From Sediminihabitans luteus (lineage in GTDB: Bacteria > Actinomycetota > Actinomycetes > Actinomycetales > Cellulomonadaceae): DNA of 64,000 bases. The DNA lies in NCBI RefSeq assembly GCF_002797595.1, contig NZ_PGFE01000002.1, forward strand, positions 186,001 through 250,000, read 5' to 3'. The position numbers and the translations under genes are program-made. Positions 45,101 through 48,953 of this stretch are shown piece after piece. A model generated the notes under the pieces. The model searched no databases. It was not told the origin of the DNA and saw only the letters and a program-made list of their open reading frames with translations. Each line of letters opens with the position of its first letter. Positions within the stretch are counted from its first letter, which is position 1.

Positions 45101-45156
45101 CGACCCGGGCCATCGCGGCCCCGGGCGCCGTGCGAGGCCCGAGGACAGGAGGACCC

Positions 45157-47022
45157 GTGAACACCACCCCCGAGGCCCCGGCCGGGCGCAGCCCGTTCGC
45201 CGACGTGCCCCCCGCGGACTACGTGCGCGACGCCGTCGCCGCGATCCTGATCTTCGTGTCGTTCTCCCTGCCCTGGGACGCGACGCACCGCGGCGCCGAC
45301 CGCATCGAGGTCGTGCTGCTCGCGCTCGTGAGCCTCGCCTCGCTCGGCCTGCCGTACCTCGCACGCTCCGGGGTGCTGCCCGCGACCTGGACCGTCCACA
45401 CCACGCGCCGCGCACGCCTGCTCGCGAACGCGCCCTACGTGGTGCTCGTGGCCGTGTACGCGCTCGTCGACCTCGTCCAGGGCAAGGACGGGCTCGGCAT
45501 CGGCACCGCCGCCGCGCTCGGCCTCGCCGGTGCGGCCCTCGCCGCGCAGCCGCGCGCCTGCGAGCTCGGCCCGGTGGACCAGGACGCGCGCGCGACCACG
45601 GTCTCGACGCGCATCCTGCTCGGCCTCGGGGTCGCCGCGGCGGCCACGACGGCGCTCGGCGTCGTGCTCGACGCGATCGACGGACCCGGCGCCGCGGGCG
45701 TGCTGTGGGCCGTGGTCTGCGCCGCGCTCGTCGTGGTGCTCGCGACCGTCCCCGCGGTGCTCGCCGCGCGCGGCGACGAGGCGTGGCGCACGACGCTCGT
45801 CGGGCTCGGGATCGTGCTCGTCGTCGCGTTCGTGCTCGGGTCGGGCCAGCTCGCGTTCGTGTCCGTGACCTCGGTCGGCACCGTCGGGTTCGGCCTGCTG
45901 CTCGTGCCCGCCGCCGCGGCGCTCGCGGCGTCGGCCGCGGTCGAGCGGGCGACCCGTCAGGTCGACGTCGTGGACCGGTGGGCGGGCGTCGCCGAGCGCA
46001 CCCTGCTGCTCCTGAGCGCGACGGGCGTCGCCGTCGCGGCGAACGGGCTGCTCGGCCTCGTCGACGGCACCGAGGCGACGCCCGTCGCGGACGTGCTCGG
46101 CCTCGTCGTGGGGATCGTGGTCGGCGGTGGCGCCTTCGCCGCACGGCGTACGCAGCACGCCGACCTCGTGCGCGGGCGCAACCTCTCCCTCGTGCTGTCG
46201 GGGCTCGCGGTCGTGCTCGGCACCGTCCTCATGATCGTCGCCGGGCCCGGCCAGGCGCTCGCCGGCACGTTCCGGTTCCTGCTCGCGTTCGGCCTGCCCG
46301 CGCTCGTCGCCGTCGCGCTCACCGCGCCCCGCGAGCTGCGCGAGCTCACGGCGGGCGGGGCCGGGTCCGCCGCCCGAAGCGCCTACCAGTGGCAGGCCTC
46401 GCCGAGCACGGACGAGGTCGCGGACGCCGGTGCCGACGCGACGCACGCACCTGACCTCGGGGGCGTCGAGGACGCCCCCGAGGAGCGGGACGCCGCCGAG
46501 TCGACGCCCGAGCCGGCCGCCAGGCCCGTGCGGGCACGCCGGGTGGCGGGCCACCGGGCGTCGTCCGAGCGGGACGCGACCGACAGGGGCGCGACGGACC
46601 GCGCCGTGACCGAGGTCGGCGAGGCCGTGCGCCCCGCCACGGGGCGGACGGACCGTGCGGCGTCCGACCGTGCGGCGGGCGGGACCGGCCCGCAGGTCGT
46701 GACGATCGAGGGCGAGCGCACGGGCTACGCGGCGCGTCCCGGGCTCGTGCACGACGACACCGCGACCGCCGCGGTCGAGGCCGTCGGCCCGGCCACGGGC
46801 GGGGCCGACAGCACGCAGGTCATGGCCGCCGCGATGGGTCGCTGGACGCCGGCCGACGCCGCCGACCCGGCGACGCCGCTCGACGTGCTGGCGACGATCA
46901 CGGCCGAGCAGCCCGAGTTGCGTCCGTACGTCGCGGCGAACCCGTCGACGTACCCCGCGCTGCTCGACTGGCTCGCCCAGCTCGGCGACCCCGAGGTCGA
47001 CCGGGCGCTGCGCTCGCGCTGA
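45157..47022 (+). CDS. Polytopic membrane protein with C-terminal LRV-like domain
   Basis: 621 residues. Ten or so TM helices (about 25-400), then a long acidic Ala/Arg/Asp-rich linker (400-560) and a compact C-terminal domain: [50 protein letters not shown]. That tail is the short leucine-rich-variant module common on actinobacterial proteins. The membrane part shows no transporter motif I recognise. GTG 45157 with strong SD. It ends just before the leuA leader promoter. Confidence 0.8.
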
Positions 47023-47029
47023 GACGCGC

Positions 47030-47035
47030 TACAGT
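47030..47035 (+). promoter_or_regulatory. -10 element of the leuA leader transcript
   Basis: TACAGT, 7 bases before the GTG of the leader peptide at 47043, so the leader peptide is probably translated from a leaderless 5' end. Confidence 0.6.
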
Positions 47036-47042
47036 GGACGAC

Positions 47043-47093
47043 GTGCGTACTGCTTCCCAGCTTCTCCTTCGGTGCCGCGACGAGGCTCTCTAG
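47043..47093 (+). CDS. leuA leader peptide ([16 protein letters not shown])
   Basis: 16-codon reading frame, GTG to TAG, with three consecutive Leu codons (CTT CTC CTT) at 47061-47069. It ends 72 bases before leuA. Leader peptides with a Leu run ahead of leuA are known from comparative studies of actinobacteria. Stalling at the Leu codons during leucine shortage should change the RNA fold that follows. Confidence 0.8.
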
Positions 47094-47127
47094 CCGGTCT
47101 CTCGTCGCGGTGGTTGGTGTGCCGGCT
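47075..47127 (+). promoter_or_regulatory. leuA attenuator: two mutually exclusive hairpins
   Basis: Stem 1 pairs CCGCGACGAG (47075-47084, inside the leader peptide) with CTCGTCGCGG (47101-47110), a perfect 10-bp stem. Stem 2 pairs AGCCGG (47092-47097) with CCGGCT (47122-47127). The arms interleave, so they are alternatives or form a pseudoknot. A ribosome stalled at the Leu codons would cover the left arm of stem 1. Confidence 0.75.
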
Positions 47128-47129
47128 GA

Positions 47130-48953
<1,824 letters not shown>

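Follow-up and report, generated by a model that had tools for sequence, protein, structure and literature searches.

The LEU element upstream of leuA in Sediminihabitans luteus: a probable ribosome-read sensor with copies before leuC and leuB-ilvE

How might a short leucine-rich reading frame ahead of leuA convey the supply of leucine to that gene, and is it the ribosome or some other molecule that does the sensing? The question is raised by a locus in a 64,000-nucleotide stretch of Sediminihabitans luteus DNA (contig NZ_PGFE01000002.1, positions 186,001 to 250,000 of the forward strand), which we call the window. As judged from the letters of the DNA, the window's element is the LEU element of Seliverstov, Putzer, Gelfand, and Lyubetsky (2005, PMC1262725) and a well-formed member of it. 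The published element comprises a Leu-run leader, a pseudoknot, and a base stem between the Leu codons and the leuA Shine-Dalgarno (SD) sequence. The window's copy lies upstream of leuA in an actinobacterium (LeuA matches TIGR00970) and has a leader ORF with a run of Leu codons, a predicted pseudoknot of stems P1 and P2, and a base stem joining Leu codons to the leuA SD; it shows no difference from the description in the PMC1262725 text.

The authors of 2005 left the mode of regulation unsettled. According to their account, leuA leader mutations in Streptomyces coelicolor (Craster 1999) had some effect, unlike classical attenuation; elsewhere in the same text, Leu-codon mutations are said to be without influence on regulation. 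Because of these mutants, the authors deemed leader translation an unlikely sensor and proposed a protein instead (PMC1262725). In the open-licence PMC literature, no later test of the mode of regulation was found.

The leuA leader and its stems in the window

The features of the locus are given in Table 1. The first-pass annotation of this DNA had described a 16-codon leader with three adjacent Leu codons, a perfect 10-bp stem right after them, and a second stem that starts at the stop codon and uses the loop of the first. All three are present, as the leader ORF, P1, and P2. The P1 core starts 5 nt past the last Leu codon and lies within a helix of 13 bp counting wobble ends; P2 has a 6-bp core, with its 5' arm within the P1 loop and its 3' arm beyond P1. 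The same annotation had taken the two stems for alternatives, a reading that did not survive: both are conserved, and together they can form one pseudoknot. The P1 and P2 cores are spaced by 7, 3, and 11 nt, and from this spacing it follows that they could coexist as an H-type pseudoknot. Its account of the stems was also incomplete in that it missed P0, the likely switch partner, in which the Leu codons pair with the SD. P0 covers the leuA SD, which lies 7 nt upstream of the ATG. No contiguous helix in 47030-47190 is more stable than these three, P1, P2, and P0.

Table 1. Features of the leuA leader region, numbered from the first letter of the window
Feature	Position	Strand	Basis or content
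Upstream gene	45130-47022, stop at 47022		DUF7937 domain and LRV_2 domain
-10 hexamer TACAGT of presumed leaderless promoter	47030..47035	+	sequence; positional conservation in relatives
Leader peptide ORF, 16 codons, GTG 47043 to TAG 47091-47093	47043..47093	+	sequence; kept in relatives
Leu codons CTT CTC CTT (presumed sensor)	47061..47069	+	sequence; gap-free spacing to P1 in alignment
P0 5' arm TCCTTCGG, putative anti-SD built from Leu and Arg codons	47065..47072	+	helix listing, SD swap test
P1 5' arm	47073..47085, perfect core 47075-47084	+	helix listing, covariation counts
P2 5' arm, overlaps stop codon	47091..47098, core 47092-47097	+	helix listing, swap test
P1 3' arm	47100..47112, core 47101-47110	+	helix listing, covariation counts
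P2 3' arm	47121..47128, core 47122-47127	+	helix listing, swap test
P0 3' arm CCGAAGGA, holds leuA SD GAAGGA (47153-47158)	47151..47158	+	
leuA, 2-isopropylmalate synthase	47166..48953	+	TIGR00970

The minimum free energy fold of the window's element contains P0, P1, and one further hairpin. Its folding energy was not beyond chance, with z of -0.59 for 156 nt and -1.41 for 124 nt, and folding energy was therefore dropped as evidence for the element. It is conservation, not folding energy, that exceeds chance.

Another GTG in the same frame, at 47034, shares bases with the -10 box and gives a longer leader form, VDDVRT.... The stop codon of the DUF7937/LRV_2 gene is separated by 7 bases from the leader's -10 box.

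Conservation of the leader, its start, and its stems

Relatives were collected with two covariance models: R1, a model of P1 and flanking sequence in which P2 and P0 are not included as pairs, and R2, which was built on 17 leuB-preceding elements. Individual places were examined among the best 150 listed for each model. The window's copy has no match in Rfam 15 at gathering score, be it T-box or any other curated family, and two matches on the opposite strand are at chance level (E 2.3 and 4.2); yet R1 matched 327 of the 344 class genomes sampled at E up to 0.001. R2 matched 320 of the 344, which is not a count of leuB copies because R2 matches leuA elements too. All 30 of the best R1 loci have leuA downstream, and the best named leuA loci are those of Sanguibacter, Isoptericola, Cellulomonas, and the like. 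In the window's own genome the leuA element was matched, the next best R1 match had an E value of 0.3, and no LEU element was found upstream of leuB or leuC at a useful score.

Across a phylum sample of 158 genomes, 15 matched R1, namely 14 class members and 1 of the other 144. This single match outside the class lies on contig C191 of genome G254; the LeuA of that contig shares 69% identity with the window's, and the contig may be foreign or transferred. Three sampled class genomes of one family, f62 (G314, G331, G343), had no R1 match.

Leader parsing was tried on 111 sequences and gave a leader in 91 and none in 20, of which 14 were family loci (L006-L031) that were effectively unread, 13 being on the minus strand and one near a contig edge. 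From the 91, 3 without the helix triple and 15 near-duplicate or badly parsed sequences were dropped to leave 73; 70 were taken on, and 66 were then aligned. P1 was unparsed in 15 elements, and with 22 duplicate ids removed the distinct elements numbered 122 before leuA, 12 before leuC, and 29 before leuB. Duplicate removal drops one leuB place (L192 is the place of L231; the L231 leader, KQLVVIAC, includes Val and Ile).

When conservation of the Leu codons was looked at, they proved to be kept, not lost. A leader ORF of 8-45 codons within 420 nt, with at least three consecutive Leu codons, was present in 74 of the 80 named leuA loci; the chance level for such an ORF was 70 of 1600 Markov resamplings. 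In the alignment of 66 elements, the stretch from the Leu codons to P1 is gap-free. The distance from P1 to leuA varies among leuA elements from 41 to 135 nt (median 51 nt). In three Arthrobacter loci (L060, L064, L077), the leader ORF continues beyond P1 into an insertion in the P1 loop, so the position of the stop codon is not fixed.

The leuA leader is probably leaderless. No sigma-70 consensus promoter was matched in the window, and so the case for a leader promoter rests on the position of the -10 box in relatives; the window's TACAGT ends 7 nt upstream of GTG 47043. The motif TANNNT stands 4-9 nt ahead of an in-frame start in 115 of 122 leuA, 12 of 12 leuC, and 24 of 29 leuB elements. 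At control offsets of 14-19, 24-29, 34-39, and 44-49 nt it was found in 12, 0, 1, and 0 of the 122 leuA elements, 3, 0, 0, and 0 of the 12 leuC elements, and 4, 0, 0, and 0 of the 29 leuB elements. The relatives thus support the leaderless start that had first been proposed from the TACAGT motif. As is probable for the window, Streptomyces lividans has a leaderless MRFGLLLLSCRGEGL before leuA, LeuL1, which is reported as leaderless from 5'-end sequencing and as lacking a typical Rho-independent terminator; unlike the window's leader, it is known from transcriptome data, and the passages on LeuL1 do not discuss a pseudoknot (PMC8079986). For S. luteus we infer the leaderless start. Leu-run leaders upstream of leuA are also noted in reports on Corynebacterium diphtheriae, where no transcription start could be assigned, and Corynebacterium glutamicum (PMC5784534, PMC4046766), and the leuA uORF of Mycobacterium abscessus is named among ribosome-protected uORFs (PMC4974804).

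Compensatory changes in the stems were looked for in relatives and were found. Among the 66 aligned leuA elements, 97.2% of P1 cells pair, a percentage that is not independent because the first element set was selected for a Leu run and three helices. Double-changed cells in P1 numbered 29, a count that none of 500 shuffles reached (8.8 in the shuffles); by two other counts, pairs with a double change (4 versus 3.0, 111/500) and pair types (11 versus 9.5, 64/500), these 66 elements were not above shuffles. The 17 leuB elements, for which the tested structure omitted the outermost P1 pair and included one pair beyond the helix, gave 10 double-changed cells versus 3.8 (0/500), 5 pairs with a double change versus 2.2 (3/500), and 9 pair types versus 7.0 (12/500). 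RNAalifold predicted P1 alone on the 66-element alignment, with a small covariation term (-0.82), because pseudoknots cannot be represented.

P2 and P0 were assessed by swapping arms between elements, in tests that ignore phylogeny. The two arms of P2 pair better with each other than with swapped arms in the 122 leuA elements (z -11.2, 0/5000) and in the 29 leuB elements (z -8.5, 0/5000); the result for the 12 leuC elements was not significant (z -1.3, 509/5000). P0 was first sought as a duplex between the leader and all 85 nt of the downstream region; the signal was weak in individual elements (leuA z -5.3, median rank 0.40; leuC z -1.4; leuB z -2.2), and a test focused on the SD took its place. 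The SD-focused swap test gave z -8.3 (0/5000) for leuA, in which the best P0 arm covers the SD purines in 102 of 122 elements, and a result short of significance for leuC (z -1.1, 641/5000), in which 11 of 12 arms cover them. P0 arm pairs are found changed on both sides, as in TCCTTCGG/CCGAAGGA, TCCTTCGTCG/CGACGAAGGA, and CTGCTTCTTCTT/GAGAAGAAGCAG.

Second copies whose leader codons follow the downstream gene

Many genomes carry two R1 matches. All 17 class genomes sampled from family f50 have at least two, and each of the 12 that were examined (L150-L160, L163) has a LEU element directly upstream of leuC, identified by TIGR00170 in L150 and by tblastn in the others. These leuC copies have Leu-run leaders of their own, for example MRRVVLLLSSRDETSF. 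The nearest named LeuA for three of these genomes is from Microbacterium or Cryobacterium. In other families the second match lies upstream of leuB (NF002898), and ilvE (TIGR01123) is next in the two loci scanned (L171, L183).

Forty second-match regions were fetched, of which 17 were before leuB (L171, L173, L174, L178, L181, L183, L188, L189, L192, L194, L196, L198, L201, L203, L207-L209), 22 before leuA as main gene or paralog, and 1 was a false match (L186). The 30 best R2 loci in the class comprised 28 before leuB (L210-L239 except L220 and L237), one before leuA (L237), and one with no leu gene in the locus (L220). Altogether 30 distinct leuB places were found, in families f3, f4, f59, f60, f66, f68, and f73. 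The leuA element is known, having been published in 2005; the copies before leuC and leuB-ilvE, with codons that match the gene, were not found in print. These copies and their Val/Leu/Ile leaders are absent from the PMC1262725 text, and no description of LEU elements before leuC or leuB was found in the open-licence PMC literature, consulted mostly as listings.

The leaders of the three groups differ in the amino acids that they encode. A run of three Leu codons is present in 119 of 122 leuA leaders, a fraction that is not independent because the Leu run was a criterion in choosing much of the leuA set, in 12 of 12 leuC leaders, and in none of the 29 leuB leaders; nor does any parsed leuB leader have one when duplicates are included (43 rows). 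Ile occurs in 7 of 122 leuA, 2 of 12 leuC, and 29 of 29 leuB leaders, and Val and Ile occur together in 2 of 122, 0 of 12, and 28 of 29, respectively. R1, whose training set consisted solely of Leu-run leuA leaders, found the leuC copies and the first 17 leuB copies; R2 was trained on leuB copies. In leuB leaders the Val codon GTA stands 4, 5, or 6 codons ahead of P1, and Ile stands 3, 4, or 6 ahead, which indicates that the amino acids are kept and not one fixed RNA word.

The leaders also prefer codons that are rare in their downstream genes. The CTT share of Leu codons in leader versus gene was 48% versus 2.6% for leuA, 63% versus 2.0% for leuC, and 40% versus 1.2% for leuB, and leuB leaders exceeded leuB genes in GTA (54% versus 2.1%) and ATT (45% versus 1.6%). 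A need for an anti-SD would account for the pyrimidine-rich CTC and CTT but not for GTA.

This match of leader codons to the downstream gene argues that the ribosome, and not a bound protein, does the sensing; the leuC and leuB-ilvE copies amount to a natural experiment on the question left from 2005 and point to the ribosome. The proposal of that year, a regulatory protein of the ML1624 ortholog group that binds the pseudoknot, drew on a phylogenetic pattern (PMC1262725) and gains something from P1, where 5 of the 11 counted pairs are invariant beyond what pairing alone demands. We consider it improbable, as it gives no reason for Leu codons before leuA and leuC and Val/Leu/Ile codons before leuB-ilvE with the pseudoknot retained, and it leaves a start codon with its own -10 box unexplained. 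A riboswitch that binds leucine directly would suit a pseudoknot that is compact and whose base stem lies on the SD; it is very improbable, given that codon content tracks the downstream gene, that no Rfam family matches the window, and that the 2005 authors saw no conserved unpaired nucleotides that could form a pocket (PMC1262725).

With the ribosome preferred as sensor, the LEU pseudoknot is likely a portable and retunable amino-acid sensor, in which a leaderless leader is read against a pseudoknot. Its second copies before leuC and leuB-ilvE, with codons that match the enzymes' products and with differing outputs, would then make up a branched-chain amino acid regulon across the class Actinomycetes, with the ribosome as its sensor. 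The wider set of copies makes the old question of the sensor directly testable.

Output at leuA and at the second copies

Intrinsic terminators, which would mark a classical transcription attenuator, were absent between the leader and the gene in the window and in all 163 leaders tested (0 of 122 leuA, 0 of 12 leuC, and 0 of 29 leuB). Since these leaders lack one, leuA is best read as controlled by translational attenuation. The first-pass annotation had likewise noted the lack of a T-run terminator and had suggested control on translation or by Rho, of which the former is the more likely. We put the probability that the window's LEU element acts by translational attenuation at roughly 70%, the stalling and the direction of control being its conjectural steps. 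The computed support consists of the anatomy, its conservation, the stems in relatives, the lack of an intrinsic terminator, and the release of the SD under a ribosome footprint mask.

By this mechanism, transcription would start at or beside the GTG, and the ribosome would read the leader from the 5' end of the RNA. When Leu-tRNA is ample, the ribosome would pass the Leu codons, terminate at the UAG, and leave; the P1 and P2 pseudoknot would then form, and P0 would close around it and hide the leuA SD, turning leuA off. When Leu-tRNA is scarce, the ribosome would wait at the Leu codons, cover the P0 5' arm, and abut P1, so that the SD would be free and leuA translated. The Leu codons would thus double as sensor and anti-SD. 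A mutation of the Leu codons would also break the clamp, which may account for the difficulty of interpreting the early mutants.

The element shares with the classical leu, ilv, and trp transcription attenuators a leader peptide that contains codons for the end product; unlike them, it has no intrinsic terminator that we could find, and the codons that act as sensor are also the ones paired with the SD. In translational attenuators of the ermC type, a stalled leader ribosome frees a hidden SD. The LEU element would have this release of the SD in common with them; it differs in a stall that would come from a shortage of amino acid and not from an antibiotic, in its pseudoknot, and in its leaderless leader.

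The effect of a ribosome on the SD was computed by masking a footprint of ∼29 nt in a thermodynamic model without pseudoknots. Over 121 of the 122 leuA elements, the mean unpaired probability of the SD was 0.231 in the free RNA; a ribosome whose P site holds the first Leu codon brought it to 0.456, and one at the stop codon to 0.282; the mask at Leu raised accessibility in 99 of the 121 and gave no rise in 22. The corresponding values were 0.015, 0.66, and 0.32 in the window and 0.241, 0.376, and 0.350 in the 12 leuC elements, the latter a borderline result (p 0.052). In a scan by codon steps over every second leuA element and the window (62 rows), the mean reached 0.44-0.47 when the P site lay 5-8 codons upstream of P1 and did not exceed 0.36 from 4 codons onward. 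It peaked at 0.472 at 6 codons before P1, which places the A site on the first Leu of the three-codon run. The window's own curve runs at about 0.4-0.7 over the whole span between 8 codons ahead of the start of P1 and 4 codons past it, and is maximal at 3 codons ahead; as it is high throughout, the Leu codons are not singled out there.

The lack of an intrinsic terminator in the window and in the 163 leaders would also suit Rho-dependent attenuation, in which fast translation of the leader leaves naked RNA on which Rho stops transcription before leuA, and a stalled ribosome or the pseudoknot prevents this. Rho was suggested for cys leaders in the 2005 paper (PMC1262725). For leuA we regard this as unlikely, since few nucleotides separate P1 from the gene and the SD region finds its best pairing partner in the Leu codons of the same leader.

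The leuB copies lend the Rho alternative more room, as leader and gene lie far apart in them (median 358 nt, with a cutoff on the distance at about 700) and as they have no general SD clamp. The SD-focused P0 test gave a mean z of 0.0 for the leuB copies (22 of 29 scored), and the output therefore differs there; Rho is possible as that output. Four short-spaced copies (L171, L174, L178, L194) have 6-7 bp at the SD of the next ORF, with z of -0.3 to -1.8, none significant singly. Where the pseudoknot is retained but the SD clamp is not general, sensor and output may prove separable. In a few loci (L173, L196), leuB starts some 0.7-1.5 kb downstream of the element. Between the element and leuB in L173, L188, L196, and L198 lies a small ORF, for which two scanned examples gave no Pfam match and which carries the common motif A-V/L-Q-x-x-L-D-x-R-D-x-G-G.
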